This document shows positions 1-21,779 of a DNA stretch of 21,982 nucleotides, one piece after another. Location of the stretch: positions 1-21,982 of IMG/VR virus record IMGVR_UViG_3300035145_002962. The stretch is one strand, 5' to 3'. The position numbers and the translations under genes are program-made. Numbering within the stretch: position 1 is the stretch's first letter; each line of letters starts with the position of its first letter. The notes beneath the pieces are model-generated. The model made no database searches. It saw only the letters and a list, made by a program, of their open reading frames with translations, and was not told the origin of the DNA. This DNA comes from a virus.

Positions 1-3000
1 CAGGTTCTTTAATTGTAAAACTATCAGTTACTGCAAATACTTGTTTATGTTCTTTTATTAAATTACCTTGACCATCTAACTTAGTTATATATGCGAATCC
101 ATTCTGTGCAGTTATACCTGCTAATCCATTAGTTAAATTATCTGTATCTATTCCAACTTGAGATTGTGCACCTAATACTTCAAATTGTCTTAATAATTTA
201 TCAACTACCTTTGAATCCGTAATCGTACCATCAATTAAATCATAAGTTGATACAAATGTTGGAGATACATCTCTTAATCTACCAATTAAATCTTGGAATG
301 TACCTTGGAAGTTTGGATTTACGTTTGTAATAAAAGAATCATATTGGTCTTGTAAACCAGATAATCTTACTTGTTCTTTTAATCGTAAATCAGCCGGCCA
401 TTGAGATATTGGTACCATTGCTAGTTGGTATGCTTCTCTCGCATCAAGAACACCATCTTGAAACTTAGAGCCATAATCTACTGCTTGGGGTTTTGTTCTT
501 TGTACTTTATTTCTTTCAAGTAAGTGTGGTTCAATTAATAATCCACTTGATACAATTGCTCTTGCAGGTACTAATGATTCTAATACTTCAAACAATGATT
601 GGTCAATATATCTTACTAATTGAATGTATTCATATAAATTTAAATTATATCTTTCAAAATAATAATTTCTTAATACTCTTAAATCTTTATACTCGTTTCT
701 ATATTCATCAGATGGGTCACCAATATAATCATCAATTTCAAATTGACCTATTGATTTCAGTATATCTAAATTAATCTCTTTTATTGGTGAGAAAAATAAT
801 CCTAATTGATTTGAATCAATAGGTGAAGTATCAAATGATTTTTTAGTAGAACGTTCTCTATAAGAAAGAGTCAATCCATCATCAATATCTTCATTTAAAC
901 CTTGTTGTTCTTCAAATCTAAATTTCTGAGAAACATTAAATCCACTAGAAGGAACATTTGCTGTTACAGTTCTTTCGTATGTTGTGTAATGATATGGATA
1001 ATCTGATATAGAATCAAATCCACTTGCAGTTGCAAATGATTCTCCATATCCTTCATTTATAGATACATTTTTAATGTAAGGGTCATTATCTCTATCTTTT
1101 GGATATTCAAAATCTAATCTAAATATTAAATCTTCAGTAGATGATGAGTGGTGGTTACCATCAATTGCATCTGGCATCAATGTGTGGTTATCCATTCTTG
1201 ATTCAGATAATGGAGTAGTCCATAATCTAAATTCATCTATTGAACCTGTAAAAGTATCACCACCTAATCTTAAGGTTGTATCTGTTTGCCAAATGTGATT
1301 TTCAACTTCTATTGATGCTGAAACTTCACTTCTAATTCTTTCTTGGAATGCTTCTTTACCATATACATTAAATGTATTACTATCTTTTGTTACAATAATT
1401 TGAGTGTATTCATCATTATAGAACGGAAATGCTGAAGATGTTACAGAATAAACAGATGTGTTATCTGCAACTGATAGTTTTAATTTACCTTCATTACCTT
1501 TAAAATGAACTACATCAACACTCCAAAGTGAACTCGAAACTACATTTTGAGTTTGTCTCTTATCAGAATTAATTCTTACCTCAATACAATTTGGGTAATC
1601 AGATGTTTCAGTATATTCTTTCCATGGAATTAAAACTTGTTGAGAACCACTTACATTTAATGCAGCTGTTCTATCTTCAAACGAAAACTTAGTTGTACCA
1701 CCATCTGCATTTCTTGGTCCACCAAATTCCATTATTGTTAACATAGAAGAAGGTACACCATAACAAGCAAGTGCTGCTTTTACTGCTCTACTCGAACCTT
1801 TGTGTTTTAGTAAGTAAGGTAAGTTATTTAATACTCTTCTCCATATTTGGTTTTGCATTTCCTTACCTGTCATTGAATTAACAGAAGTACCATCCGATGT
1901 TTCACCGAATGCATATTCCCAAAGTGATTGAGCTTTAGCAGGAACTTTAGTATCCCAACTTAAAGATTTTAACATTTGAGATAATAAGGAATCTTTTATA
2001 CCTAAATTATACTTGTGTTCTAATTTTTTCTTTTCAGATATTGCTTTTGTATATGAATATAAAACATCAAAATGATGCCCCATCATATTAAAGAATGTTT
2101 TAAATTGTTCAGAATCTTGAGAGTTCTGTACATGAAGTGGTAAATTATTAATTAAGAAATCTTTATTGTAATAATCATAATTTCTTGCAGATGTTACAAT
2201 TGAATTATACCATCCTTCACCTTCACTTGAATCTGAAGCAGATACAGAACTACCTCCGGCTCCTGGATAAGTCAATCCATCTATTGAGGAAGAAGTAAAT
2301 AGAAATGTTTCAAATGCATCAAAGTTATCTTTTACTTTTTGTATTGATTCTGAGTTTTGGTTGATTTCGTTTCTTAATGTTAATGAACCAGTGTGGAATG
2401 AGCCAGATTCTAATTTATCAATTTTATCTTGATAAAATTCCATTAACTTTATTTTATACATAAAGTTATCAACTCTTTCTTCTGCAGAAGAATATTTTAC
2501 AAAATTATCCCATCCCCATGTATGGTTATTTTCAATAATAACAGAACCACTTACTTCTTTAGAAGCACTCGCAAAGTTTATATCTAATTTTTTTAAATCA
2601 AAACCACTACCACTAACATACTCTGTTAAAAGTTTTGTAGATGAAGAAGAACCACTTGCAATTAAATCATCATATAATTGGAATCCAATATTTTCTCCAC
2701 ATACATCTGTTCCGAAGTTTGGTACAAGTTCTTTACAATCTTCGATAGATTCGTTTACAATAGTTACTTGTTCTACATAAGGAATTGATTGTATTTTAGA
2801 TACCCAAATCTGTTGGTTTGGTTGTATATCTCTTTTTAAAGGTTCGTATAATTTGAATACAAGAGTTTTTTCTTCATGTACTTTTATTCTTTCACCAGTA
2901 TCTTCCTTAAATTCGTATTCTGAAAAAGTTTCGTAATCCGTATCCCAAGATGCGATAACTTGATTATCTGCTTCACCAAAGTGCATTAAGTGAGTTAAAT

Positions 3001-5017
3001 ATTTAGATGAATCACCACCTAAAACACTTGTATCAAATACATCACATATTGCCTCTTTAATATCTCTTAAAACTTCATCTCTTCTTAATTTGATATTACC
3101 TTTATCAAATCTAATTTGAATAGTTTCAGTTTTACCTGCTGTTTTTGCATCTCCTTCTTCGTTGTATGGAATAAATAATAAATCAAATACAACTGCATCA
3201 ACATCTTCATTTAAAGTATCACCTGCTTTTTTAAGGATATCTCTAATGTTCCACATTTGAGAACCATCAGCAGGTCTTTTAGATGCTATTTTTTTCTTAT
3301 CTGTTACATCATTAATGTAGATATCAACATAGTTTGTATTAACAGATGTCCATGATGTTTCAAACTCAACATTGTATCCTTGATAATCAGCACCATATAC
3401 TTCATTAGGATAATCAATTGTTATAATATCAGGACCTGGTAATAAATCTTTTCTTACTGCTGTGAATTTTATTGGTACAATATCACCTGTACCATCAGTT
3501 TGAGACCTACCTTGAAAATAAACTGTATAGTTACCTGCTCCATTAAATAAATCATCATCATTTAATGATACAGTACCAGATGGTTTTAAAACTTGTTTTG
3601 TTTTTCCAATAGTGAATATAACTTCATCTGCATTTGTAGATGTATAAGTAATATCAATAGTTTGAAAAGTACCATCAGCTCCATCACCAAAGTTGATTAT
3701 ATTATCACCTTGTAATTTTGGTGTAACAATTACTGATTTAGGTCCTGATGCAACTGAACCTCTTGTTTCTGTTCCATCTACATAATATCTTTCTTTTCTG
3801 TATATGTAATTTGGATTTGGTCCATCGGTAACAATATCAACTACTTTTTTTGATTTAGTAACGGTAATTTTTAAAATATAATCAATACCTTTAACTAAAT
3901 TTTTCGTACTAAAGTTTTTAGTAGTAGCATTATCTACTTTTTTATTACCTTTATAAAGTAAGTATTGATAGTTACAAGTATCATCAGTACCACTTAAATT
4001 AACATTTATCGTACCTGTACTATCAGGTGGAGCAGTAATCGTTGTATCTTCAGAATTTACAACTGTTTCTGTTGTACCTCCAACATTTACTGTTGCTGTT
4101 ACTCCACTTGGTAACTCTGGATCCACTTTTACCACAAATGGTATTGGTGGTGGGTCAATTTGTCTTTTCTTAAGATTGAATTTAATTTTTCCAGTATATC
4201 CGCTAGTTATCGTTGATACTATTTGTCCGTTTCTTTTAATAACAATTTCATAGCTCTCTTTTAAACCACCACCCATATATTGAGAAACAGGATTAGTTTT
4301 TGTTTGTCTATGTACTGTAAAGAAATCTTCAGAAAAATATCCATTCGCATCTAATACTGCGAATTTTTTCATTGTACTAAATTCAGCAGATGAATATCTT
4401 TTATTATGTGGAGCTTGGATAGTTCCTCCTAAGCCCTTAACATTGAAAGTACCAATATTTGGACTTGATGTAATGTTAAGAGTAAACATAAAATCTTTAG
4501 CTGGGAAGCGATTATTATTATTGATATCTCTATATACATCATCAAATGCATTACCACCAATATTAGGAGTATTATCTTGTGATGGTACTATTCCAGGAAA
4601 ATTGGAATTATTTTCAACAATAGCCTTTCCTCTTGTAATCTCAACTACATCATCTACAAAATTATCATCAGTATCTACTATTGGTGTTGTTTTTATTTGC
4701 TGAGTAGGTTGAGTCTTTGGTGTAGATTTAAATTGAATCGTACCACCACTACTTCCTGCACCAACGTAAGTACCATCAGTTTTTTCAATTCCAGCCGAAA
4801 CAGCTTTCATGTTTTGACCGAATTGACTTTCGGATATTCCTTTTTTTATGGCATCTGCATCTATTTGTATAGGTGCAAAATTAAGATTAATCGCAGGTGC
4901 TTTCAGGTTCATAAGACCATCGAGATTAATCCATGTCTTGGTAAAATCAGACCAAGTCCACCCATTGACCTTTTCTCCGTTGAATGCTCCGTTTCTATTT
5001 GGTTTTACTCCTGCCAT
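1..5017 (-). CDS. Giant tail/baseplate protein with LamG-like domain and gpI/gp7-like core (C-terminus outside window)
   Basis: A single open frame runs from ATG at 5017 to the left edge without a stop: 1672 complete codons, C-terminus missing. The start follows AGGAGA, which overlaps the TAG of the upstream gene. Seen: an N-terminal region of about 250 aa; Ig-like beta-rich segments with a Pro-rich joint (about 280-620); a helical region (about 850-1050); the motif NLPYLLKHKGSSRA around 1066-1079, with Trp1059 just before it; then a concanavalin/LamG-like jelly roll (about 1105-1275) ending in GSIDEFRLW with Trp1266. Known: P2 gpI/T4 gp7 wedge proteins carry a comparable KGT-type helical core, and LamG domains often bind glycans. 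Inference: this gene follows gp6 and the accessory tail genes, so it may combine the gp7 wedge role with a receptor-binding appendage. Exact function is uncertain. Confidence 0.85.
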   Translation of the reverse strand, partial: MAGVKPNRNGAFNGEKVNGWTWSDFTKTWINLDGLMNLKAPAINLNFAPIQIDADAIKKGISESQFGQNMKAVSAGIEKTDGTYVGAGSSGGTIQFKSTPKTQPTQQIKTTPIVDTDDNFVDDVVEITRGKAIVENNSNFPGIVPSQDNTPNIGGNAFDDVYRDINNNNRFPAKDFMFTLNITSSPNIGTFNVKGLGGTIQAPHNKRYSSAEFSTMKKFAVLDANGYFSEDFFTVHRQTKTNPVSQYMGGGLKESYEIVIKRNGQIVSTITSGYTGKIKFNLKKRQIDPPPIPFVVKVDPELPSGVTATVNVGGTTETVVNSEDTTITAPPDSTGTINVNLSGTDDTCNYQYLLYKGNKKVDNATTKNFSTKNLVKGIDYILKITVTKSKKVVDIVTDGPNPNYIYRKERYYVDGTETRGSVASGPKSVIVTPKLQGDNIINFGDGADGTFQTIDITYTSTNADEVIFTIGKTKQVLKPSGTVSLNDDDLFNGAGNYTVYFQGRSQTDGTGDIVPIKFTAVRKDLLPGPDIITIDYPNEVYGADYQGYNVEFETSWTSVNTNYVDIYINDVTDKKKIASKRPADGSQMWNIRDILKKAGDTLNEDVDAVVFDLLFIPYNEEGDAKTAGKTETIQIRFDKGNIKLRRDEVLRDIKEAICDVFDTSVLGGDSSKYLTHLMHFGEADNQVIASWDTDYETFSEYEFKEDTGERIKVHEEKTLVFKLYEPLKRDIQPNQQIWVSKIQSIPYVEQVTIVNESIEDCKELVPNFGTDVCGENIGFQLYDDLIASGSSSSTKLLTEYVSGSGFDLKKLDINFASASKEVSGSVIIENNHTWGWDNFVKYSSAEERVDNFMYKIKLMEFYQDKIDKLESGSFHTGSLTLRNEINQNSESIQKVKDNFDAFETFLFTSSSIDGLTYPGAGGSSVSASDSSEGEGWYNSIVTSARNYDYYNKDFLINNLPLHVQNSQDSEQFKTFFNMMGHHFDVLYSYTKAISEKKKLEHKYNLGIKDSLLSQMLKSLSWDTKVPAKAQSLWEYAFGETSDGTSVNSMTGKEMQNQIWRRVLNNLPYLLKHKGSSRAVKAALACYGVPSSMLTIMEFGGPRNADGGTTKFSFEDRTAALNVSGSQQVLIPWKEYTETSDYPNCIEVRINSDKRQTQNVVSSSLWSVDVVHFKGNEGKLKLSVADNTSVYSVTSSAFPFYNDEYTQIIVTKDSNTFNVYGKEAFQERIRSEVSASIEVENHIWQTDTTLRLGGDTFTGSIDEFRLWTTPLSESRMDNHTLMPDAIDGNHHSSSTEDLIFRLDFEYPKDRDNDPYIKNVSINEGYGESFATASGFDSISDYPYHYTTYERTVTANVPSSGFNVSQKFRFEEQQGLNEDIDDGLTLSYRERSTKKSFDTSPIDSNQLGLFFSPIKEINLDILKSIGQFEIDDYIGDPSDEYRNEYKDLRVLRNYYFERYNLNLYEYIQLVRYIDQSLFEVLESLVPARAIVSSGLLIEPHLLERNKVQRTKPQAVDYGSKFQDGVLDAREAYQLAMVPISQWPADLRLKEQVRLSGLQDQYDSFITNVNPNFQGTFQDLIGRLRDVSPTFVSTYDLIDGTITDSKVVDKLLRQFEVLGAQSQVGIDTDNLTNGLAGITAQNGFAYITKLDGQGNLIKEHKQVFAVTDSFTIKEP

Positions 5018-5025
5018 TTTATCTC

Positions 5026-7077
5026 CTATAGTCCAAATTTACCTCCTACACCAGTACCATCATCAAACACTTGATTTCCACCACTACCTCCTCCATATCC
5101 AATATTTCTTGGTGCAGATTCCTGATACAAATAATGTCTACTTTCAATACCATCACCAGATTTTATTGTTATATAACCTCTGTTTGGATTATTCTGAGAA
5201 TTTCTTACACATCCTTCAAATGAAATAATTGCATTTCCTCTACCACTACTTGAGTTTGGTCTATAATAAAGTCCTGGTATACCAGTTACACTAAATGACC
5301 AAGTATCAGTAGTAGTAATTCTAATTATATCTTGTCCACTTACCGCACCAGTCCAACTAAAATTAATAGTTTGTGGGCCATTTGTTCGAAATGGTTTTTT
5401 AGCAGGTGGTGTTGGAGGTGTTGGTTCTGGGTCTGGTGGAGGGGGTAATATTTTTGCCCCAGCCGCTTGTACAATTCTTAATGTTGCAGTACCATATTTT
5501 GTTCTAGCTGTGATTGTAGCTGAACGAGCAGCTCCTGTATCGTTTGCTCCTATATTATACCCAACATCTCTACTAGCAGAACTATTAACTCTACTTTCAC
5601 CAGTTGAATCTGCATTTAACCAACTTGGATTACCAGAAATACTCCAACTGTAACCGCTGAATAGACCCGAAACATTTACATAAAATCTTCCTCTTTTACC
5701 TCCTGCTGGAATTGATAGAGTTTCGCTTACTTTACCAACTTTAGATGCACTTGATAAATTAATTAATGTTTTTCTACTTGGTGCTGCGCCTGAACTTCCT
5801 GTTGATGTTGATGTTGATGTTGAAGTATTTTTTGTTTTTTTAGGTGCACGATAACAATCTCCTTTTTTTCCATAAAATCTATTACCAACTTCCCAACATC
5901 TTTTTACATAAACACAATCACCATCTTTACCTTTATTTTCTGCTTTTGAATCGTTACAAACTTTTACATCTCTATATTTTGCAACTTTAATATCATATAC
6001 ACATTGAGAAGCAATAGTTGCTTTAGGATTATAGTTTTTAGCCTTACTATCCATACATCCTCTAATCTGAGCACCAACACTTGCGGGTCTTGTAGAGGTG
6101 TAACTTTCATTTGAATTAACAGTTAATAATATATCTTTTAATTTATCAATAGTTTTAGATTGTGCTAAATTTTTTGCTGTATTGATTCTTATATCTTGTT
6201 TTGGTAAAGAATATTCTGCTGCATTAGATGCCATTTCACATACCTCATCAAATACTTTTGCTATATCAAACTCAACACCAAATGTATCACCAGTTGGTTG
6301 ACCATAATTTGCTTCAAATGGATTGTAGTACCTATTCATGCGATAGTTATCTATAATCTCTTGGAATAATTTTTTTACTTGAGTTAAATAAACTTCGAAA
6401 TTTACTAATTTAAATTCTTGTTCAATAAGTTTTATATAATCTTGACCATCAGATATTCTACCTTTTTTCATTAACATATTTCTAACAACCTTTGCAACAT
6501 CCATTTGAGTTACAAACTCATCAAAAAATATTAAAACATCTGCGGTAAATGTACCACAATTTACAAACGTATCATATCTTGCTTGTAAATCTGAGTTAGG
6601 TATTGATGTACCATCTTCTACAACAGGTAAAACTCTTACCTCTGTTCTTGATGGTGATATCTCATGAATCCAAACTTTATCAAACAATCTTGGTTCAGAA
6701 CCCAATCTTCTGTTCAATAAAGTAATTTGAGTTTTGAATACTCCATTTGAATATCCAGCTTCTTTTAATAATTTTTCGGTATCAATAAAATACTCTTGTG
6801 CATTATTAGATTTTTTATTGAATTTATTTTCAGGTACTTTATCAAAGTATTTTTTTATATTCTCATCAGTATAAGAAATATATCTTACTTTTTTACCATC
6901 AACGGATTCTTGTGGTAATTGATTATCGGAGGCATCATAGATTACAAACTCGATGATATCACCAACATCAAATCCGAAATATCCGCGCTTGATTTCTTTT
7001 TCAAAGATTTTTCTATCTTTGTCATCAAGTCGGTATCCCTTCTTTTCTACTACTTGTTTAAATCCTTTTATTGCCAT
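5026..7077 (-). CDS. Tail surface protein with Cys-rich repeats and two BACON-like domains
   Basis: 683 aa. The N-terminal part (about 1-320) is a virion-type region carrying IHEISPSRTEVRVLP (137-151), a motif I associate with tail/baseplate proteins of marine T4-like phages. Residues 340-409 hold three consecutive Cys-rich units: GCMDSKAKNYNP...CVY, a degenerate VCNDSKAENKGKDGDCVY, and RCWEVGNRFYGKKGDCY. A Ser/Thr run (418-427) leads to a BACON-like beta domain (about 437-538: SIPAGG, SWSISGNPSWL, ANDTGAARSATIT, IVQAAG). A Pro-rich linker (545-560) leads to a second one (about 567-655: DTWSFSV, NNPNRGYITI, LYQES). BACON domains are typical of Bacteroidetes and their phages and are thought to bind carbohydrate or mucin. 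Inference: an adsorption or fibre component on the baseplate. The domain calls are by eye. Confidence 0.85.
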   Translation of the reverse strand: MAIKGFKQVVEKKGYRLDDKDRKIFEKEIKRGYFGFDVGDIIEFVIYDASDNQLPQESVDGKKVRYISYTDENIKKYFDKVPENKFNKKSNNAQEYFIDTEKLLKEAGYSNGVFKTQITLLNRRLGSEPRLFDKVWIHEISPSRTEVRVLPVVEDGTSIPNSDLQARYDTFVNCGTFTADVLIFFDEFVTQMDVAKVVRNMLMKKGRISDGQDYIKLIEQEFKLVNFEVYLTQVKKLFQEIIDNYRMNRYYNPFEANYGQPTGDTFGVEFDIAKVFDEVCEMASNAAEYSLPKQDIRINTAKNLAQSKTIDKLKDILLTVNSNESYTSTRPASVGAQIRGCMDSKAKNYNPKATIASQCVYDIKVAKYRDVKVCNDSKAENKGKDGDCVYVKRCWEVGNRFYGKKGDCYRAPKKTKNTSTSTSTSTGSSGAAPSRKTLINLSSASKVGKVSETLSIPAGGKRGRFYVNVSGLFSGYSWSISGNPSWLNADSTGESRVNSSASRDVGYNIGANDTGAARSATITARTKYGTATLRIVQAAGAKILPPPPDPEPTPPTPPAKKPFRTNGPQTINFSWTGAVSGQDIIRITTTDTWSFSVTGIPGLYYRPNSSSGRGNAIISFEGCVRNSQNNPNRGYITIKSGDGIESRHYLYQESAPRNIGYGGGSGGNQVFDDGTGVGGKFGL
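5801..5824 (-). repeat. Six-base tandem repeat coding for the Ser/Thr linker
   Basis: Plus-strand GTTGAT repeats three times, then GTTGAA; on the coding strand this gives alternating Ser-Thr (STSTSTST) in the linker before the first BACON-like domain. Such a repeat can change in length in steps of two residues without breaking the frame. Confidence 0.8.
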
Positions 7078-7086
7078 CTTTATCTA

Positions 7087-8355
7087 TTAAGGTCCACTAT
7101 CTTTATTTTTTCTAAGTTTCCATTTGTAACTCTTTGAAATCGTTGCACCATCAGAATATTTAATCGTTAGTTCAAAATTACCAGTATGGGTTTTTGCATC
7201 TCTTGATGGGAATCCCCATGACTTACCATGTAAATCTTCAGATGGTTCTACTTGATTAGAACCACCATTTTGTCCATGAATCCATGATTCAGCTACAAAA
7301 GTAACACTTCCTCTTTCACCTCTTGCAATGTTTGGTTGAGAAGAAGGTTTAAACCAATTCTTAGAACCTCTCCATTTACCACCACTTTGTGAAGTTACTC
7401 TGACTGTTACTCCAGTAACCGAAGGAGCATTTCCATCTGCATCTGCATCTTTAAGGTTTTGTATTTCTAAAGTTTCACCACCATACCACCTACCAGGTCC
7501 ACTATACTTTTTACATTTAGTTGCAATTGAAATTGGTCCATCAAAATTAGCATCATCGGGACTAAATTTAATATAGGTATCACCATCACCCATATCTTGG
7601 AATCCACCTGCAACTGCTGTTTGAGTTGCTTGAGTACCTGATATTTGAGATGCTGCAGCTGCCTGTTGTGCTTCTAAAATATCTAATTGAGTTTGTACTT
7701 GCCCTTGTAGAGAAGCAACTAACTGTCTTAATTGTACAATCTGTTCTCTTAATGTATCCTTTTGTGCAGTTAAACCTTCTACTTGTGCGTTTAACGAAGT
7801 TCTTTGAATCCCTTCTTTTGTTGATTTGATAATGGCAGTTGAAAACTTAGAAAGTAAATCAGCGTACTTTATATTAGTTTGTTGTGCTTGATTTTCTGCT
7901 ATTGCCTGAGCAACTCTTGCTGCATCTAATTGAGTTTGTAATGCTTGAACCTGTCCTTGTAGTGAAGCAACTTGAGCTTCTAATTCTCTAATTCTATCGT
8001 TAGCTATACCTAAATCTTCAATAGCTTGATTGTATCTTTCTAGTAAATCATCATAAACAGGTTTAGGTACAACCTCAGGGTCAGGTGGTAATGGAGGTAA
8101 AATTAACTCATCGATTTCTGTATCAACTGCTTTTTTTAGTTGTTCTTCATCGTACTTTGGTTTTTCAATGAAGTTAGTTAATTCACCATCTCTTTCACCT
8201 TCAATATGGTCATAAGGTTCAGTTGCAGACTCAGATACGAAAGCAGTACCACCATCCAAAAACGTATGTGTTTTTGTAAGCGGGTCCTCAGAGATGATTG
8301 CTCGTGAACCACTCTGTACTAACTCCGATACTCTAAGTTTGTTATCTAATGCCAT
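7087..8355 (-). CDS. Coiled-coil tail fibre/structural protein
   Basis: 422 aa, starting 1 bp after the stop of the upstream gene (TAAAATG). An N-terminal region (1-85) and a Pro-rich joint (86-99, PPLPPDPEVVPKP) precede a long heptad-rich, Gln/Ala-rich coiled coil (about 100-235). The coil contains the segment VASLQGQVQ twice (129-137 and 213-221), apparently by internal duplication. A C-terminal beta-rich domain (about 255-415) has many Gly/Trp residues (GPGRWYGGE, GGKWRGSKNWF, ESWIHGQNGG). This architecture fits a trimeric fibre or whisker-like attachment protein. I do not recognise a named family. The place in the baseplate operon, between the DNRLRE-like and BACON-like proteins, supports a virion role. 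Confidence 0.8.
   Translation of the reverse strand: MALDNKLRVSELVQSGSRAIISEDPLTKTHTFLDGGTAFVSESATEPYDHIEGERDGELTNFIEKPKYDEEQLKKAVDTEIDELILPPLPPDPEVVPKPVYDDLLERYNQAIEDLGIANDRIRELEAQVASLQGQVQALQTQLDAARVAQAIAENQAQQTNIKYADLLSKFSTAIIKSTKEGIQRTSLNAQVEGLTAQKDTLREQIVQLRQLVASLQGQVQTQLDILEAQQAAAASQISGTQATQTAVAGGFQDMGDGDTYIKFSPDDANFDGPISIATKCKKYSGPGRWYGGETLEIQNLKDADADGNAPSVTGVTVRVTSQSGGKWRGSKNWFKPSSQPNIARGERGSVTFVAESWIHGQNGGSNQVEPSEDLHGKSWGFPSRDAKTHTGNFELTIKYSDGATISKSYKWKLRKNKDSGP
7681..7976 (-). repeat. Internal duplication in the coiled-coil gene
   Basis: Two copies of a segment coding for VASLQGQVQ...TQLD lie at about 7681-7722 and 7925-7976 and are near identical at DNA level (plus strand AATTGAGTTTGTA ... 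CCTTGTAG[A/T]GAAGCAACT). One copy has a 9-base insertion (ALQ). The distance between copies is about 250 bp. It indicates growth of the coil by duplication. Confidence 0.7.
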
Positions 8356-8356
8356 T

Positions 8357-9418
8357 TTATTTCTCTATCGTAAAAGTTAAATCCTTATCTTCAAAGTATT
8401 CTATTACACCATTCCTATCTACTTTAACTTCAATATAATAATCTCTATTATATTCCCAATTTGTTAAATCTAATTTAAAGTAGTTACCACTTGAATCACA
8501 CGAAACTTTTGTGTAATCTCCAAATGGAACAATTACATCTTCTGTTACTACATCTTTTACTTGATAATAAGTTGAAGATGGTAAATATTTTACATCTGTG
8601 TAAGAGTATTGATTGGTATATGTTTTGAGAGGATATTTCTCTCTTCCGAAAACTCTGATTTCAGGTTTACTTCCACGCTTGTATCTAGTCTTTAATCTTT
8701 TGAATGTTACATGAATATCATCAGCGGTAAGTTCTGTTAAAGAACCAGTAGAGAACGAAGAATCATCCCAACCAATTCTTAATTTAGGTTGGTATATAGT
8801 GTTTGTTTCTTTTGAGAAGAATTTTAATTGTCCATAATCATTTACATCATTTTCTAATGATGATGTATATTTTAGTATAAATCCTTCATTTGGTAAAGAA
8901 CCACTAATCCAACTATCCATAGTGGTTTTAACATCCATTTCAATATCGGATGTTTCATATGAAAATGATTGTGTTGAATAAGAACCAGTAAACCAAGTAC
9001 CACCCTTACCATTAAATGAACCAGTTGTATCAGCTGAATGTTCTTCTAATGATAACCAATTAACTCCTGTTCTAACTTTATTCCAAGTAACACCATCAGT
9101 AGTAATCTCATCAAAACGAGTACCAATACCCATCTCCCATGATTGAGTTACTGCATATGCATATATTGTATAATCAATTGGAATTTCAGAGGATTCACAT
9201 TCTCTCATAACTAAATCAGCCGAACTCATAGTTATATCTCCACTTACAATTGATTCAGATACTGCGTTTGTATCAAACTTTATAAGAGAACGAGCAATAT
9301 CCTTCAAACTTCCATAGTAAGTTTTCGAGATTTCTAATATCTCATCTCTACCTGTATTTTGGGTAGGTTGTTGTAAGTAAATCGTTGCATCTTTTGATGC
9401 TGTTACAAAATGATACAT
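8357..9418 (-). CDS. Tail structural protein with DNRLRE/CBM96-like N-terminal domain
   Basis: 353 aa. Its ATG overlaps the TAA of the gp6-like gene by one base (TAATG), indicating translational coupling. Residues 5-225 resemble the DNRLRE/CBM96-type jelly roll: DATIYLQQP then NTGRDEILEI, a SLIKFDTNAV strand, ADLVMRECE, YTIYAYAVTQSW, and a following WFTGSYSTQSFSYETSDI strand. The C-terminal part (230-353) looks like one or two Ig-like beta domains (RGSKPEIRVFGREKYPLKTY; RDYYIEVKVD). DNRLRE modules occur in secreted carbohydrate-active proteins. Here the module is probably a virion surface or wedge-decorating domain. The domain call rests on pattern only and could be a generic beta sandwich. 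The virion role is well supported by position. Confidence 0.8.
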   Translation of the reverse strand: MYHFVTASKDATIYLQQPTQNTGRDEILEISKTYYGSLKDIARSLIKFDTNAVSESIVSGDITMSSADLVMRECESSEIPIDYTIYAYAVTQSWEMGIGTRFDEITTDGVTWNKVRTGVNWLSLEEHSADTTGSFNGKGGTWFTGSYSTQSFSYETSDIEMDVKTTMDSWISGSLPNEGFILKYTSSLENDVNDYGQLKFFSKETNTIYQPKLRIGWDDSSFSTGSLTELTADDIHVTFKRLKTRYKRGSKPEIRVFGREKYPLKTYTNQYSYTDVKYLPSSTYYQVKDVVTEDVIVPFGDYTKVSCDSSGNYFKLDLTNWEYNRDYYIEVKVDRNGVIEYFEDKDLTFTIEK

Positions 9419-11457
9419 TATACAATTCTCCCTTTTATATCTTTACCTGGAAATTTCAATTCGAACACCGATGGGTCAATTGATGGGAAAACCATTTTTC
9501 CTTTGGTAGCATTTTTAATATTATATTTGTGTTTAGAATATGCACCACCACATTTGTTAACTATCTCACATTTTGGTACTGATTGTACACCTTCTACTGA
9601 TGCTATGATTAATTCTAATTCAGAAATATTGATTGATTGATTAAATGTCCAATTATCTATGTTAAAGAAATTTTCGATTTCAGTAATACATTCTAATAAT
9701 ACTTCTCTTTTATTATATGAGTTAAATACTCTAATTTCAAAATCAACCCCAACATTAATCACAAATCCATCTAATAGATTTACTCCATCTGTTAACATTC
9801 TATATTCTGATAGATATGTTTTTAGGTTTTCTTTTACTGCTCTATTCATATTAGATAAATTCTTATTAGAATTATATCCAAGAACATATAGATTAATAGC
9901 AAATGGATTGTTTTTTTCATTTGCTGTTCCTTTTTTGTTACCTAAATATTTTTGAAGTTCAGTTTTTAATTCTGTTTCTGTTAAATCTCTATCTTGTAAG
10001 TCCAATACTAATCCTGCGAATTCATCTAATGAGTCTGGAGAAGATAATATTGATGATGGTGAATTATTATCTAATTGTCCATCTGGTGCACAATATGCTT
10101 TTGCTATCCCACCATACTTAGCAGGTAATGTTAATGCTCTTACTTGATAATCTTTTCTTGTTACTGCTCTATTTTGTGAACCAAACATAGCTAAAGCATT
10201 TTCTCTAATCTCATCAATAGTTTCTTCACCTCTACCACCAGTAGAAGGAGCTTCATTATCAACTGCTATTGAGTTTTTACAAAATCTGTAAAGTGATAAT
10301 TCATCATCATCGAACAAAGATAAATCTTCATCAAATTCTATTGCATCAACTTTTGTTAAATCGTTTACAGGTACATTTGCATTAACACCACCACCAGTAA
10401 AATAAGTCACTGTTAGTTCTGTATTAGCAGGTGCTTGTCCATATGATTTTGATTTTAAGAAGTTAGCCGGGTCAAATGATGCACCTAATCTATCTATTGA
10501 GTTACTTAATCCTAATCCTACATTTTTAAAATTTGGTAGAAACGTTTCATCAGATGCAGTAGAATTACCTGCTCCAAAAACTAAAGTTGTTGTATTATCT
10601 GCGTTTACTTGTCTTACAAATCTTCTTGATGTTTTTGTTACTTTTAAAATTTGAGGAACTGTTTCTTTAAATTGTGCTAAATCTTTATCATTAGATTCTA
10701 TATTAGCATAATCAGTATAAACTAATTCTTGTGCTAAGTAAGGAACCTCATACCACTTATTACCATTAGAATCTCTTACATCGTAAATATCTACAACGTT
10801 TGTATCAGATAAATCTATTTTTGAAAATTGTTGTGGAGACCCAAATGATACAGTCACACTTTGTTCTTCAGCTGATATTACATTTACATATTTTTTGATT
10901 AGATAATAAACTGGTTCACTAAATTCGTTTCTTTCATATACACTAACTTCTCTTTCCGTTACATCTGAAAAATCCACTAACTCTGTTGTAATAAAAGTAA
11001 GACCAGTAGAATCAGATGTAATATTCATTCCTTGTTTAATTCTTAATAAATAATTTTCATCCAACTCAAAACGATTATCACCATCATATAAATCACCACT
11101 AGCTTTTCTTTTACTTGGTACAAGTTGATATACGGATAACCTCGTTAATGAAGGTGATGTAACTTTTGGTTTATATCCTAAGAAGTTTGCAAGAGCAACA
11201 ACGTTACTTCTATCTTCAGCTGAATGTAACATCGATTCCTTCAAAGTATCATCAATATAATATCCAAGAACATCTCCTAAGTAGGATGCCATCTCGATGA
11301 ACATCATACCTGGCGATGATTCGTTGAAATCTGAGTAAGTTGTTGGGAAATATGTTTTAGCATATTCAACAAGGTTATCTCTGAATTCAGAAAAATCCTT
11401 ATTAAGATATTTTATATCTCTACCCTTTGTTCTTATGTTTCCTTTATTAAGTGCCAT
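9418..11457 (-). CDS. 6: Baseplate wedge protein, T4 gp6-like (gpJ family)
   Basis: 679 aa, close to T4 gp6 (660 aa). The N-terminus has the gp6 pattern of marine T4-like phages: RDIKYLNKDF, YAKTYFPTTYSDF, SSPGMMFIEMASYLGDVLGYY (about residues 15-67), then LANFLGYKP. The middle carries FTGGGVNANVPV and TRKDYQVRALTLPAKYGG, the latter typical of the gpJ-like core. The C-terminal part (about 560-620) is the gpJ-type domain with FVINVGVDFEIRVFNSYNKR. In T4, gp6 dimers join wedges into the inner baseplate ring and bind gp25 and gp7. The gp25 homologue lies directly upstream, 6 bp away (CAGGGGTAATAATATATG). The assignment is firm. It is expressed late with the rest of the baseplate operon. Confidence 0.95.
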   Translation of the reverse strand: MALNKGNIRTKGRDIKYLNKDFSEFRDNLVEYAKTYFPTTYSDFNESSPGMMFIEMASYLGDVLGYYIDDTLKESMLHSAEDRSNVVALANFLGYKPKVTSPSLTRLSVYQLVPSKRKASGDLYDGDNRFELDENYLLRIKQGMNITSDSTGLTFITTELVDFSDVTEREVSVYERNEFSEPVYYLIKKYVNVISAEEQSVTVSFGSPQQFSKIDLSDTNVVDIYDVRDSNGNKWYEVPYLAQELVYTDYANIESNDKDLAQFKETVPQILKVTKTSRRFVRQVNADNTTTLVFGAGNSTASDETFLPNFKNVGLGLSNSIDRLGASFDPANFLKSKSYGQAPANTELTVTYFTGGGVNANVPVNDLTKVDAIEFDEDLSLFDDDELSLYRFCKNSIAVDNEAPSTGGRGEETIDEIRENALAMFGSQNRAVTRKDYQVRALTLPAKYGGIAKAYCAPDGQLDNNSPSSILSSPDSLDEFAGLVLDLQDRDLTETELKTELQKYLGNKKGTANEKNNPFAINLYVLGYNSNKNLSNMNRAVKENLKTYLSEYRMLTDGVNLLDGFVINVGVDFEIRVFNSYNKREVLLECITEIENFFNIDNWTFNQSINISELELIIASVEGVQSVPKCEIVNKCGGAYSKHKYNIKNATKGKMVFPSIDPSVFELKFPGKDIKGRIV

Positions 11458-11463
11458 ATATTA

Positions 11464-11892
11464 TTACCCCTGTATTGTAAAAGTTACACTATCGGTTTCA
11501 ACGTTATCTCCTACTGAGAATTTTATATCCATTCCTACTTGATTTTTATCCTTCATTTCATCAGTCAATTCAACATTTATTTCATCAATATTGATATATG
11601 GTAACCAAAAGTTTACACTTTCAGTTATTGTATCAACCAACCTATCTTCAAAATCATCTCCTATTTGTTCAAAGATGAGTTCATGTAAACCAGTACCAAA
11701 TTCTGGTTGCATTATTCTTTCACCCTTTGCAGTAAGAAGAAGGTTTCTTAAATTAGTTTTTGCAGCCTCATATGATGTATAGGTAGGTTCAAATATAGAA
11801 CCACCATTAGTAGGATATTGAAAACCATAAGCATGGTTATCAAATTCTACTTCGGTATCCTTTATTATTTTTTTACCTAAAATGTATGCCAC
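11464..11892 (-). CDS. 25: Baseplate wedge protein, T4 gp25-like (gpW family)
   Basis: 142 aa with a GTG start, placed there by GGAGGATAAGAAGTG just upstream; the GGAGG lies at the end of the preceding microprotein gene. Family signature GERIMQPEFGTGLHELIFEQ (57-76) follows the helix YEAAKTNLRNLLLTAK, as in gp25/gpW (lysozyme-like fold without lysozyme activity). T4 gp25 is 132 aa. gp25 forms part of the baseplate inner ring with gp6 and gp7 and helps nucleate sheath assembly. The gene order gp25 then gp6 matches that of contractile tails. Assignment is firm. Confidence 0.95.
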   Translation of the reverse strand: MAYILGKKIIKDTEVEFDNHAYGFQYPTNGGSIFEPTYTSYEAAKTNLRNLLLTAKGERIMQPEFGTGLHELIFEQIGDDFEDRLVDTITESVNFWLPYINIDEINVELTDEMKDKNQVGMDIKFSVGDNVETDSVTFTIQG

Positions 11893-12635: not shown

Positions 12636-13568
12636 TTATCTACAATCAACACAACACTTATCTCTTTCTCTAATTAATTCTTCTCGTATTTGTGCTAATG
12701 ATTTATTAATTTCTTTTCCAGCTTTACTCTCTTCAACTATTTCTGCTAAAGTTTTTAAATTTCGTTCAGCTTCTGTAAAGAATCTTTCATTTCCTAATCT
12801 ATCTTTTTGTAATTCAGCATCTAATATAGCTTGTATCTTTTCTTCGTTATTATCAGTAGAACTTAGAAAAGAAGCTAAGTTATTATCAATATCTGCAGAT
12901 TCTCCACTTTGTTGTCCACTTTGTATTGGTGGAAATATACTAATATTTAAATTATCCAAGTCATCATCACTATTACTTTTTGGTAAACCAGGAAAAGGTA
13001 TCTTTGGAATTGTATATGCTGTCCAATTAACTACACCAGGTGCCGCAATAGGTGAAGGGGCAGATGGATATAATGAAGTTGTAAAATACAATCCCTTTAA
13101 AGTTAGTAAATGAATTTGCATAAATAACACCATTGCATTTATAAATGTTAAACAAGATTTTGTTGGGATTTCAAATGGAACATTTGGCCATTTACCTGAA
13201 TCGGTAACTAATGCTTGATTGATTATAAGGTTTTGTACTGCTCCACTTGCAGGTATTGGAGTTACTGGGAATGGTATAAGAGTTGCTCCGGTCCAATATG
13301 CTTTTACCGCTTGACCAACATCTTTTAAAAATGCGTGTTGACCAGGTGTACCCTTACCCAAAGCTTGTAAATGAGCTACTACCATCATTTGAGTAAACAA
13401 AGCTGGATTACCTACCATGACTGGGTTTTTACTTATAAGCTCCCCACCTCGTCTCATACACATATCGTACTCTAATGCAAGTTTAGCAGCATATTGTGCA
13501 AATGAAACAACACCTGTCGGATTGTTCATGTACATTAACATATTTACTTTGAACAAGTTCCAAGACAT
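12636..13568 (-). CDS. Tail/baseplate-associated protein of unknown function (310 aa)
   Basis: 310 aa. The start ATG follows GGAGTAATAAATC; the GGAG overlaps the stop of the spike gene. The N-terminal two thirds are hydrophobic and helix-rich, with two membrane-like stretches (about 50-70 and 139-160, CLTFINAMVLFMQIHLL) and Pro/Gly-rich turns (LIPFPVTPIPASGA). The last 95 residues are acidic and charged, ending CCVDCR with three closely spaced cysteines. There is no clear signal peptide. It sits directly after the gp5-like spike in the operon, which suggests a hub or tail-tip component, perhaps one that contacts membrane. I do not recognise the family. Confidence 0.8.
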   Translation of the reverse strand: MSWNLFKVNMLMYMNNPTGVVSFAQYAAKLALEYDMCMRRGGELISKNPVMVGNPALFTQMMVVAHLQALGKGTPGQHAFLKDVGQAVKAYWTGATLIPFPVTPIPASGAVQNLIINQALVTDSGKWPNVPFEIPTKSCLTFINAMVLFMQIHLLTLKGLYFTTSLYPSAPSPIAAPGVVNWTAYTIPKIPFPGLPKSNSDDDLDNLNISIFPPIQSGQQSGESADIDNNLASFLSSTDNNEEKIQAILDAELQKDRLGNERFFTEAERNLKTLAEIVEESKAGKEINKSLAQIREELIRERDKCCVDCR

Positions 13569-13574
13569 GATTTA

Positions 13575-14858
13575 TTACTCCGTAAAATTAAGTGTAGATT
13601 TTATAGTATCTAATTCTGCTCTAATTGCTTCAAACTCTGCTACATTAAGTGGGCCCTTTGCAGTTGGTCCAGATGGTGTTGCATATATCTGATTTGTTAT
13701 TGCTGTTATTAACTTATCCAATGTTTGAACTAAAGTTTCTCCTCTTGCAAATGGTTCTTTTTGACCTGTGGTTTTTGATTCACCATTATCATTTGTATTT
13801 ACCCAAACATTTCCTTTACCTGTTTTGATATAAAAGTTTGAGTTGTTTCTATCTGTGGTAATGTTTACTTCTCCACCGAAATCTAAATCAGCTCCTTGTT
13901 CTCCATTATCTATTGTAAATTTACCATCAGATATAAATCCATAGTTACCTTTGGAGAAGAACATCATCTCATTTGCTTTAGATGATAAAATTATTCTTTC
14001 TGAATTTATTAGGATTTGGTCTTGACCTACATACTCTTCCGGTAATTCAAATTTAATTGGAGTTGTTTTAAAGTTAGATGAACCACCATCATCAATTAGA
14101 CCTGGCTGAAATGGTATCTTATAATCTTGTGAGGTTATTGCGATTATAGAACCATCTTTATTTAAATCTTCTTCAACTAAATCAAAGGGTTTTAAATTAT
14201 TAAGTGATTCATCGTTTTGCCTGTTTCTTATTATTAAAGAAGGTGAATAACTATTTTCTTCATTGTTATATGCTGAAAATCTTATCGATTGTCCAAACCT
14301 CGATTGAAGAATGGAATCACCTTCATAAAATTTTAATTTATTTACTTGTTGTGGTTCAAAGTGTTCACCTAACTTTGTACTTCTATCACTTGATGAAGAA
14401 CTGTTTGTTGTACCTGTTTGAGATACAGTCGAGTAATCACTACCACCTTTTGATTTTTCAGTTTTACTATAAAGTTGTTTATTAGCATCTATTACAGCCC
14501 CACCTGTGTTTATATCAAGATGAGTATATCTTCGATAATATTTAACATTACCTATGTTATAAATTTCAACAGTTTCCCCAATAAGTGGTAGTTCTAATAA
14601 CGATGGATTTAGTGGTTGATATGTAAATAATTGATTTTCACTACTTGTGTTATCACTTAAAGGTCTGATTATTGCACATCCAACTATATCTGTTTCTTTT
14701 TCAGTATATAATTCTTTAGAATCATCATCTACCTTTAATAACTTGGAATGAGTATCATCTAATATTACATCAACAACAACACCACTACTAATTCTATTAA
14801 TGATTGGTATTTTATTAGTTTGTAAAGAATTGTATGATTGTTGTAATCTTCTACTCAT
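13575..14858 (-). CDS. 5: Baseplate central spike/hub protein, gp5-like, without lysozyme domain
   Basis: 427 aa, starting 8 bp inside the upstream gene. The N-terminal region (about 15-115) looks like the OB-fold of gp5/gpV/VgrG spikes (GVVVDVILDD, VGCAIIRPL, PLIGETVEIYNIG). After a Ser-rich loop (140-161) comes FYEGDSILQSRFGQSIRFSA (177-196) and SPSLIIRNRQ, a pattern I associate with gp5-type proteins of marine phages. A repetitive beta region follows (about 280-356: ILINSERIILSSKANEMMFFS, GGEVNITTD, FYIKTGKGNVWVNT), consistent with a short beta-helix needle. A helical tail ends the protein. T4 gp5 (575 aa) has an internal lysozyme domain; none is visible here. The role is to form the membrane-piercing spike under the tail tube. 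The family call is strong; symbol by analogy. Confidence 0.85.
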   Translation of the reverse strand: MSRRLQQSYNSLQTNKIPIINRISSGVVVDVILDDTHSKLLKVDDDSKELYTEKETDIVGCAIIRPLSDNTSSENQLFTYQPLNPSLLELPLIGETVEIYNIGNVKYYRRYTHLDINTGGAVIDANKQLYSKTEKSKGGSDYSTVSQTGTTNSSSSSDRSTKLGEHFEPQQVNKLKFYEGDSILQSRFGQSIRFSAYNNEENSYSPSLIIRNRQNDESLNNLKPFDLVEEDLNKDGSIIAITSQDYKIPFQPGLIDDGGSSNFKTTPIKFELPEEYVGQDQILINSERIILSSKANEMMFFSKGNYGFISDGKFTIDNGEQGADLDFGGEVNITTDRNNSNFYIKTGKGNVWVNTNDNGESKTTGQKEPFARGETLVQTLDKLITAITNQIYATPSGPTAKGPLNVAEFEAIRAELDTIKSTLNFTE

Positions 14859-15264
14859 CGCTTACCTTTTGTTTTAACTCTTCTATTTCGTTAGTAAGTT
14901 CATCAACTTTATGTTCGTGTTCATCAACAACTTCTTTAGCTGTTTCTTCGAGTTGTTGAAGCAATTGTTCTTTTTCAACATCTGTTAAGAAACCAGTATC
15001 ACCTTCTGATTTATCTTTTGATGCTATCATTCTTTGTGCAATTGCTGCCATTTTGATTAGTGATTCATCATTTCTTACTGAAGTATCAACTAAATCTTTT
15101 ATGATTGGGCCAATAACTGCCATATCACCAGCATGTCTGATGATTTTTTTCATTTCTGCGATTAACTCTGATATCCTTGATTTTTTATTTTGTTGATTAT
15201 CGTAGATATCTTTGAACAATCCACTTAAATCTTTGCCAGGAAATAATTCAAAATTCGTACTCAT
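14851..15264 (-). CDS. First gene of the baseplate operon, coiled-coil protein (137 aa)
   Basis: 137 aa, hydrophilic and helical. Residues about 97-135 form an acidic coiled coil (LLQQLEETAKEVVDEHEHK, ELTNEIEELKQKV). An internal segment (38-60, MKKIIRHAGDMAVIGPIIKD) is more hydrophobic. It overlaps the gp5-like gene by 8 bp (GATGAGTAG), so the two are probably translationally coupled. A TATATTTATA element lies 23-32 bp upstream, directly below a strong terminator, which makes this the likely first gene of the long late operon. It may act as a spike chaperone or small hub component, but no family is recognised. Confidence 0.8.
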   Translation of the reverse strand: MSTNFELFPGKDLSGLFKDIYDNQQNKKSRISELIAEMKKIIRHAGDMAVIGPIIKDLVDTSVRNDESLIKMAAIAQRMIASKDKSEGDTGFLTDVEKEQLLQQLEETAKEVVDEHEHKVDELTNEIEELKQKVSDE

Positions 15265-16454: not shown

Positions 16455-18161
16455 TTAAAGTATCTTTTTTTTGATAATGTAGTTGTGAATCACCAATATA
16501 TCCATTTCACAATTTAGAAAAGTTTCGATTGCTGATTTGGGGTCTAACACCATTGTTTGGTCTTTGAGATTAAATGATGTATTAAGTACAATTGGATAAT
16601 CATTTATTTTATGTAGTTCTGTTAATAACTGATACATCCTTTTGTGTTGAGGTTGTTTTAAACTTTGTATTCTAGCAGAACCATCTACATGCGTGATTGC
16701 AGGTAAGTTCTTTCTGTGTTCTTCTTTTACCTGAACTACTTGATTCATATAAGGAACTGCCTTTTCATAATCAAAGTATTTTGTTTGTTCTTCTAGCTTT
16801 ACAATAGGAGCAAATGGTCTAAACCCTTCTCTTTTTTTAATCACACGATTCATTCTTGATTTCATCTGTGGGTCACATGGGTTTCCTAAGATAGAACGAT
16901 TTCCTAATGCTCTAGCACCAAATTCCATTCTACCTTCAAACCAACCCACTACATTTCCATTCTTAATATGTTTAGCTATAACTGGTATAATCTCTGAATG
17001 ATTTAATTTAGTAAACCAAACATCAACTTCCATTTCATTTAAAACCTTCTCTACATCATCATTGGTATAATGAGGTCCAAGATATGGACTTGTATTGTTT
17101 TCTTTTTTATCACCACCTCTTTCATAATAAACATGAAGTGCGGCACCAATAGCAGAACCAGCATCAGATGGAGCTGGTGGAATCCAAACATTCTTAAAAT
17201 TAGATTTAGTTAGAATCTTTCCATTTGCCGTTCCATTGTATGCACAACCACCACTTAAACATAAGTTGTTAGAAGAGCGTATAGCAAATAATCTATCTAC
17301 CAATCTAAAGAATAGAAATTCGTATTCGTGTTGTAAAGTTGCTGCTAAATCTTTGTGTGGTTGATTTAAATTATCTTCAGGTAATCGATTTGGAATACCT
17401 AAGAGTTGTCCTAACTTCTCGTTAAACATATGAGTATCCGACCACTCAAACGTAAAGTATTCCATATTCAGTTTAAATCCACCATCATCTGTGAGGGTGT
17501 ATAGTTTCCTAAATTTATTAAGAAACTTTTTTGGGTCACCATATGGAGCCAAACCCATAACTTTGTACTCACCTTCATTTGGTTTGAAACCAAGAAAGGC
17601 AGTAAAGGTTGAATAAAGCATTCCCAATGAATGTGGGAATTCTATTTGTTGTATCTTTGCAATCTTATTTCCTTCACCATACCAAAGAGTAGTTGTTTCC
17701 CATTCACCAACACCATCTACTGAAAGTATAGATGCTTTATCATAGGGTGAGGTATAGTATGTATATGCGGCATGTGATAAGTGATGGTCTGAATAAAATA
17801 TTTCTGTTTTTGGATTCGTAATACCATAAATTTGATTTTCAAATTTTTTGTATTTTTCTATATTTCTTTTTACAATACCATTTCTTTTAAAGTACTGAGA
17901 TATAGGTCCTTTAGTAACAGATTTTTTTATCCTATCTATTTTGTTATCTGGATTATCATAAAATGCAACAGCTGTAATATCTTCTCCACTAATTTTAAAT
18001 TCATCATACAACCAATTGATTGTATTGATAGGAAAAGATGAATCATGTTTTATACCAGTGAACCTTTCTTCTTCCACTGCTCCTAAAACTTTTCCATCTT
18101 TAATTAGTGCTGCTGCACTATCGTGATACCCACACGATATTCCTAAAATATAACCTTCCAT
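16455..18161 (-). CDS. NodU/CmcH-family carbamoyltransferase
   Basis: 568 aa, typical family length. N-terminal Kae1/TobZ-like ATPase half: ISCGYHDSAAALIKDGK (8-24), VEEERFTGIKHDSSFP (29-44), SDHHLSHAAYTYY with His126, His127 and His130 (124-136), SVDGVGEW (147-154), GEYKVMGLAPYG (197-208), CLSGGCAYN (301-309). C-terminal carbamoyltransferase half: GWFEGRMEFGARALGNRSIL (406-425), FRPFAPIV (447-454), VLNTSFN near 535. Family reaction: carbamoyl phosphate and ATP give a carbamoyl-adenylate, and the carbamoyl group is moved to a hydroxyl on a sugar, antibiotic or Nod factor. Some T4-like marine phages carry it. The substrate here could be a modified nucleobase, a virion glycan or a host glycan. 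It is last in the operon, 5 bp below the late sigma gene. Confidence 0.93.
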   Translation of the reverse strand: MEGYILGISCGYHDSAAALIKDGKVLGAVEEERFTGIKHDSSFPINTINWLYDEFKISGEDITAVAFYDNPDNKIDRIKKSVTKGPISQYFKRNGIVKRNIEKYKKFENQIYGITNPKTEIFYSDHHLSHAAYTYYTSPYDKASILSVDGVGEWETTTLWYGEGNKIAKIQQIEFPHSLGMLYSTFTAFLGFKPNEGEYKVMGLAPYGDPKKFLNKFRKLYTLTDDGGFKLNMEYFTFEWSDTHMFNEKLGQLLGIPNRLPEDNLNQPHKDLAATLQHEYEFLFFRLVDRLFAIRSSNNLCLSGGCAYNGTANGKILTKSNFKNVWIPPAPSDAGSAIGAALHVYYERGGDKKENNTSPYLGPHYTNDDVEKVLNEMEVDVWFTKLNHSEIIPVIAKHIKNGNVVGWFEGRMEFGARALGNRSILGNPCDPQMKSRMNRVIKKREGFRPFAPIVKLEEQTKYFDYEKAVPYMNQVVQVKEEHRKNLPAITHVDGSARIQSLKQPQHKRMYQLLTELHKINDYPIVLNTSFNLKDQTMVLDPKSAIETFLNCEMDILVIHNYIIKKKIL

Positions 18162-20405: not shown

Positions 20406-21020
20406 TTATAAGATTTCAGCACCTTGTGTTAACAAAGGTTCTGCCTTCTTGTATTTCATAAATTCAGTATCACCATTTGGTAATTTTACCATCACCCTAT
20501 CGTTTCTACCATACTTTTTTTCTCTAATAATAGTTGTAGTGTATCTTCTTTTAGAATCAGTTATTAGAACTCCGTTAAGGTGGTCTATCTCATGTTGAGC
20601 ACAAACACACTCTAATAGACCTGCATCAGAAAAGAATTCATTAGAATCCTTGTATGGTTCTTTCTGGTCTGGTGAAAATATAACTGTTCCTAAATTATCA
20701 CACTCTATTGTAAATGATTTATGTCTTACTGTTTTAACTGGTTTACGCATTGATTTTGGGATTGATAAACATTGTTCTACATAAGCAACTGTATCTTGTG
20801 ATACTTCGGTTACTCTTGGATTTATCAATACCAATGGTTCTTTAACATTGATTACACAGGCACGAACATCCAAACCAATTTGATTTGCAGATAATCCTAT
20901 ACCTCCATGTTTTGTAAGTTCCTGCAAAAGAGTTGTTGATATCTCATCAACTTCCTTTTGGCTCATTGGTTTTGGTTCAATAACCTTTTTAAGTTTATTT
21001 GGTTCTTTTATCAATCTCAT
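20406..21020 (-). CDS. def: Peptide deformylase
   Basis: 204 aa. All three family motifs are present: motif I GIGLSANQ (40-47), motif II EQCLS with metal ligand Cys84 (82-86; usual form EGCLS), motif III QHEIDHL with His143, Glu144 and His147 (142-148). The reaction removes the N-formyl group from nascent proteins in the cytoplasm, using Fe2+ or a similar metal. The C-terminal extension (about 160-204) is basic. Deformylases are recurrent in marine phages, where they are thought to sustain maturation of host or phage proteins. The start overlaps the stop of the 78-aa gene (GAATGAG), a translational coupling. The Gly-to-Gln change in motif II does not remove a catalytic residue. Confidence 0.95.
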   Translation of the reverse strand: MRLIKEPNKLKKVIEPKPMSQKEVDEISTTLLQELTKHGGIGLSANQIGLDVRACVINVKEPLVLINPRVTEVSQDTVAYVEQCLSIPKSMRKPVKTVRHKSFTIECDNLGTVIFSPDQKEPYKDSNEFFSDAGLLECVCAQHEIDHLNGVLITDSKRRYTTTIIREKKYGRNDRVMVKLPNGDTEFMKYKKAEPLLTQGAEIL

Positions 21021-21258: not shown

Positions 21259-21729
21259 TTACTCCGCTATATTTAAATATTTTTCTAATAACCATGATGA
21301 AGATTGTACTTTATCTCCTAATCCCCATACTGATTCTATTCCATATGAATTACAAACATCGTTTTCTGGTGTGGTTGTTTCGGTTCTATCACCACCATTA
21401 CCAAATGCCATTACACCTTTTGGTAAATCACCATTTTCGTTTATATACTTTCTTCTTGCATGGTCGATGAAATCGATTGCTGTATCATCGTTGTGAATAA
21501 GTGGATTCATAATATAAACGTAATCCACATCTTTTATATTTTCCATTATGAAAGCCCTTTCGTGTTCTTTCATAAATGATTTTCCTTTTTTTCTATGTAG
21601 CCAACTATCGTTGTTTAATCCTACCCAAACTTCATCTGCTAACTTTTTAGCATTTTGGATACATTCTATATGTCCTTTGTGTACCGGGTCAAATCCTCCA
21701 CTAATTAAAATAACTTTATATTTTTTCAT
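21259..21729 (-). CDS. HxGH-type nucleotidylyltransferase (cytidylyl-/adenylyltransferase-like)
   Basis: 156 aa. The ATG at 21729 is chosen because the alternative upstream TTG (21750) lies inside the promoter -7 element. Motifs: SGGFDPVHKGHIECIQNAK (10-28) with the HxGH nucleotide-binding signature, WVGLNNDSWLHRKKGKSFM (35-53), HERAFIM (56-62), FGNGGDR near 113-119, and KVQSSSWLL near the C-terminus, in place of the isomerase-type STT/SSS loop. The family transfers NMP from CTP or ATP to a phosphorylated sugar, glycerol or cofactor (TagD, RfaE/HldE C-domain). Substrate unknown; sugar-phosphate activation is the most likely. It is the first gene of the deformylase operon. Confidence 0.88.
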   Translation of the reverse strand: MKKYKVILISGGFDPVHKGHIECIQNAKKLADEVWVGLNNDSWLHRKKGKSFMKEHERAFIMENIKDVDYVYIMNPLIHNDDTAIDFIDHARRKYINENGDLPKGVMAFGNGGDRTETTTPENDVCNSYGIESVWGLGDKVQSSSWLLEKYLNIAE

Positions 21730-21747
21730 TTTGAAATATTCTTTATA

Positions 21748-21779
21748 CAAAGATACGAAAATAATTTTATAATTCCAAA
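21748..21779 (-). promoter_or_regulatory. Bacteroidetes-type promoter of the deformylase operon
   Basis: Minus strand TTTG (21779-21776), 20 bp, TATCTTTG (21755-21748), an exact match to the Bacteroidetes primary-sigma consensus TTTG/TAnnTTTG. The start codon of the nucleotidylyltransferase lies 19 bp below. Confidence 0.8.

Follow-up and report, generated by a model that had tools for sequence, protein, structure and literature searches.

The 683-aa protein encoded at positions 5026 to 7077 on the minus strand of the DNA analysed here (a 21,982-base fragment of a virus record, below called the window) is most likely a rapidly diversifying, baseplate-anchored surface-contact protein. It consists of an N-terminal adaptor that is nearly constant among its relatives, followed by Cys-rich repeats and by a highly variable tip of two BACON-like domains. 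The protein and its neighbours are laid out as follows.

2..5017, minus strand: large tail protein with a Laminin_G_3 domain (PF13385, E 1.2e-6); runs off the window
5026..7077, minus strand: 683-aa baseplate-cluster protein (adaptor, Cys-rich repeats and two BACON-like domains), whose parts are the next seven lines
5029..5109, minus strand: Gly-rich C-terminal tail, residues 657-683, low confidence
5110..5400, minus strand: BACON-like domain 2, residues 560-656; modelled at pLDDT ~84-92, closest in the PDB to the BACON domain of 3zmr, weak PF13004 match of a homologue
5401..5451, minus strand: Pro-rich linker, residues 543-559
5452..5781, minus strand: BACON domain 1, residues 433-542 (Pfam core 477-538); PF13004 above the gathering score, family profile matching 3zmr
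5782..5847, minus strand: Ser/Thr-rich linker, residues 411-432; Pro-rich in several relatives
5848..6060, minus strand: Cys-rich repeats of the GCxDxxAxNYNPxATxxxxC type, residues 340-410; present in almost every relative, whether or not it has BACON
6061..7077, minus strand: N-terminal adaptor, residues 1-339; pairwise identity averages ~85% within the clade
7087..8355, minus strand: coiled-coil protein of 422 aa, with which several relatives align over the N-terminal ~230 aa only
8357..9418, minus strand: 353-aa conserved baseplate-cluster protein; 33-36% identity to phages immuto and Mel-JY01
9418..11457, minus strand: gp6-like baseplate wedge protein (phrog_219, E 3e-24); 36-40% identity to Flavobacterium and Microcystis phages
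11464..11892, minus strand: gp25-like baseplate wedge protein (PF04965, E 6.4e-13)

The gene and its neighbourhood

The open reading frame is real, because independent IMG/VR contigs encode full-length relatives (~60% identity to the 683-aa protein; one further contig is identical) and the gene order of the baseplate cluster is kept across them. Upstream of the BACON gene lie the genes for the gp25, gp6-like, 353-aa and coiled-coil proteins, and downstream lies that for the Laminin_G_3 protein, which is 1672 aa long in the window and 1795 aa in the relative L002. By its wedge genes for gp25 and a gp6-like protein, this cluster is identified as that of a contractile-tail baseplate of the T4 type. 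The sequence-only reading had placed the protein in such a baseplate operon and called it T4-like; the location is borne out, and the term T4-like holds for the baseplate wedge genes only.

Other features of this region deserve mention. The Laminin_G_3 (ConA-like lectin) domain occupies residues 1124-1273 of the protein encoded at 2-5017, making it a second candidate for glycan contact. The C-terminus of the 422-aa coiled-coil protein (7087-8355) may vary in the way the BACON tip does. Genes for a carbamoyltransferase (16455-18161), a peptide deformylase (20406-21020) and a cytidylyltransferase-like protein (21259-21750) adjoin the tail genes. Among the matches listed, the best phage carbamoyltransferases share ~30% identity with that of the window and come from Pelagibacter phages and cyanophages.

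Two BACON-like domains

Two beta domains at residues 437-538 and 567-655, joined by a Pro-rich linker, had been proposed from the sequence; the linker is real and the borders are correct to within a few residues. By its Pfam match, domain 1 is a BACON domain. It scored 31.7 bits against PF13004 (E 3.3e-9) in the genome search, and 25.8 bits within the whole protein or 30.5 bits as an isolated domain by hmmscan, the curated cut-off being 25 bits. All 8 homologous domain-1 sequences scanned matched PF13004, and 2 of the 8 domain-1 relatives matched PF19190 (BACON_2). The best PDB sequence for the domain-1 family profile was BoGH5A (3zmr, E 0.0018), followed by the GH16 entry 8va4 (E 0.07). The conserved hallmarks of BACON are a W, an N, an R and a C-terminal Q (PMC6949934). 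PxW, N, R and Q persist throughout the domain-1 family, with W54, N80, R86 and Q105 invariant in alignment A1. The motifs pointed out earlier (IPAGG, a W followed by SWL, N..R and a final Q) are all present in the window, but only some of them extend across the family. In the predicted model of residues 430-683 domain 1 is all-beta, at a pLDDT of only ~45-73.

Domain 2 has diverged beyond the reach of Pfam: in the window it has no Pfam match, even at E<=10. Its homologue in L006 matches PF13004 weakly (1.4e-4, 15.5 bits, below the cut-off), and one of 6 members does so at E 0.012. W and Q are invariant in this family, and N and R are not conserved. However, domain 2 is the better modelled of the two (pLDDT ~84-92), and its best PDB match by VIA-align is the BACON domain of BoGH5A (3zmr; Z 10.2 over 89 residues, 2.5 A), about 2 Z units above the rows that follow. 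The other solved entry, 4zmh, which is listed as containing BACON (PMC11216935), ranks fourth at Z 8.1. Many other Ig-like proteins match domain 2 at Z 7-8; therefore the fold is a common one, and it is the order of the top matches that favours BACON. With Foldseek alone, the two-domain model retrieved mostly unrelated Ig-repeat proteins at the top. The BACON likeness of domain 2 is thus a similarity of predicted fold, which is no proof of descent. Taken with the Pfam match of domain 1, it agrees with the earlier claim that both domains are BACON-like. A simple recent duplication of the two domains is unsupported, since their profiles show no significant similarity in hhalign.

Constant adaptor and variable tips

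The adaptor has no Pfam, PHROG or PDB match. Its model (pLDDT 68) found no PDB entry above Z 5, and its only strong match in BFVD is an uncharacterised phage protein. Its fold being unrecognisable, only gene position suggests that the adaptor docks to the baseplate. The GCxDxxAxNYNPxAT repeats (5848-6060 in the window) follow the adaptor in almost all relatives, in one to several copies, whatever the tip.

Within the window clade, mean pairwise identity falls from 85% in the adaptor to 63% in the Cys-rich part, 30% in domain 1 and 33% in domain 2. The window protein and that of L006 share 92% of the adaptor, 31% of domain 1 and 29% of domain 2; for L004 the corresponding values are 81%, 23% and 52%. 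In 105 pairwise comparisons among 15 proteins, identity in the adaptor did not predict identity in domain 1 (rank r 0.09). L004 and L037 are only 55% identical in the adaptor, yet 71% identical in domain 1. Rapid divergence alone is insufficient to explain this pattern, because distant adaptors share close domains. On the tree of 39 adaptors, the distribution of BACON requires two changes, such as a single gain and a single loss. The seven-member adaptor clade is rejected by the domain-1 tree (AU p 0.00043), although in that tree the window and L006 sit on very long branches, which carry a risk of long-branch artefact in this test. Since domain-1 similarity does not track adaptor similarity and the two phylogenies conflict, the simplest reading of these comparisons is that tips have probably been exchanged between phage lineages. 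A diversity-generating retroelement was also considered as the source of variation, and no reverse transcriptase was found in the 25 records, many of which are fragments.

Relation to known BACON proteins

Both domains can be compared with the BACON domains of BoGH5A (3zmr) and GH115 (4zmh): domain 1 passes the gathering score of the PF13004 family, and domain 2 has the same predicted Ig-like fold. In bacteria BACON is often N-terminal on lipoproteins or enzymes, whereas here it lies at the C-terminal end of a protein from a phage baseplate cluster. The crAss-like and other gut phages are known to carry BACON domains in tandem near their tail genes (PMC6949934). The crAss-like BACON (PF19190) resembles the present case in being tandem, near tail genes and part of a poorly conserved C-terminus, but crAssphage has eight copies against two here, and crAss-like phages are a different lineage. 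The suggestion that BACON is shared by unrelated phages is therefore upheld. Predicted gut myoviruses with BACON have already been published (PMC13370021). Those near 'Flandersviridae' carry modular BACON/PKD adhesins and have predicted Bacteroidota hosts; they share with the window BACON and its modular combinations, but they are gut phages with PKD, and the window protein has no PKD match. BACON also occurs in marine 'Helgolandviridae' contigs, of which the isolate Leef is siphoviral (PMC8776804). BACON on phages, including predicted contractile-tailed ones, is thus already known, and the window adds a well-supported new example.

Possible function

We consider it likely that the 683-aa protein is a baseplate-anchored appendage with an exchangeable BACON contact tip, which diversifies to follow host surfaces. 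The conserved adaptor (residues 1-339) would dock to the baseplate, the Cys-rich repeats and linkers would form a stalk, and the two Ig-like BACON domains would be the exposed, exchangeable tip. This tip may contact the host envelope or its glycan coat at adsorption, and its fast divergence and swapping between lineages would enable the phage to keep pace with changes in the surface of its hosts. The analysis itself shows what the domains are, that the adaptor is constant and the tip variable, that their phylogenies disagree, and which genes lie around; we infer that the protein is present in the virion, docked, exposed and in contact with a surface. A glycan is a plausible ligand of the tip and one possibility only; a direct carbohydrate-binding role of BACON was unproven in 2019 (PMC6949934). 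The sequence-only reading, which had invoked glycan adsorption, is confirmed in its observation and partly supported in its interpretation.

Several data are consistent with a contact tip. In other tails, different domains are placed after the same adaptor. BACON tandem repeats are linked with tail proteins (PMC6949934), and BACON-containing proteins confer adhesion when displayed (PMC13370021). Against it, the 1672-aa neighbour, whose Laminin_G_3 domain scores above the cut-off, competes as a candidate for receptor contact; moreover, the passage of PMC9853417 that cites Larsbrink 2014 reports that the BoGH5A BACON domain bound none of the substrates tested, and this domain has been described as a spacer (PMC11216935). 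The same points would suit BACON domains that are inert spacers or decorations extending the appendage, while a different tail protein, for example the one with Laminin_G_3, contacts the receptor. We regard such a passive role as unlikely. In the window clade BACON is the C-terminal end, and nothing folded lies beyond it to be spaced apart; the BACON domains also vary more than any other part of the protein, whereas domains that served only as spacers would have no need to pass from one lineage to another.

Less likely still is a tip that adheres loosely, without host specificity, to mucus or polysaccharide particles, concentrating phages near their hosts (BAM-like) and not recognising them. 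This idea draws on phage K1F, on which displayed gut-phage proteins with BACON and other Ig-like domains raised mucin-dependent adhesion to epithelial cells (PMC13370021). However, the proteins displayed were from gut phages and nothing places the window in a mucosal setting, while a gene located in the baseplate cluster is easier to reconcile with contact to the host than with decoration of the capsid.

The exchangeable contact tip may have a wider meaning, which we put forward tentatively. The adaptor could define a family of tail adaptors, not described before, from uncultured phages with contractile tails; like a socket, this family would accept interchangeable tips (pairs of BACON domains, BACON with self-processing Hint domains, or other domains), and recombination of BACON tips could change host-surface specificity. 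The present data assign BACON domains a definite place next to the genes for baseplate wedge proteins, and the comparison indicates that BACON is the variable and probably exchanged part of the protein. Because related phages can have almost identical adaptors and differ chiefly in their tips, the binding of phage BACON to host surfaces becomes a testable question.

Nearest isolates and host

For the gp6-like, 353-aa and 255-aa proteins, the nearest isolates are Flavobacterium phage vB_FspM_immuto and Microcystis phage Mel-JY01, at 33-40% identity. Like the window, both have homologues of the gp25, gp6-like, 353-aa and large proteins in the same order; unlike it, neither whole genome has a match to the adaptor or to BACON. 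Compared with these two phages, the window therefore has the appendage as an extra feature. The host may be a member of the Bacteroidota. Relatives of the adaptor were not found in GTDB genomes. The carbamoyltransferase was rejected as a pointer to the host, its relatives being spread over many phyla.

Other tips behind the same adaptor

Among 45 distinct tails following the adaptor, BACON was found in 15, the Hint model and the intein-splicing model each matched 4, and Peptidase_S74 matched 2. In the sister clade, a Hint-type C...HN block follows one BACON domain in seven relatives (L012, L014, L031, L036, L037, L038 and L040), and in L042 such a block is present without BACON. All eight of these adaptor relatives, among them those at L012 (6025-8229) and L014 (6658-8919), end in a Hint/intein-like domain (GCLVGNT...LTHN). 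The Pfam Hint and Intein matches of these tails are weak. In the Hint tails that were read, the residue after HN is not C, S or T, which would suit self-cleavage over splicing. The Hint tails of L038 (7001-9481) and L040 (7001-9496) apparently also have a C-terminal Peptidase_S74 intramolecular chaperone: the motif SDRRLKKNI was read in both, and Peptidase_S74 was matched by two members.

Finally, contig G003 (L175, from the record of L005) encodes at 13065-15170 a second BACON-like protein of 701 aa (PF13004, 22 bits, below the cut-off), adjoining a 1603-aa tail protein that ends in S74. Beyond its tail genes, at 404-10247, the same contig has a run of similar open reading frames with FCxxKW/CxxPW-like starts; one of them encodes a radical SAM protein, and a methyltransferase gene lies nearby.
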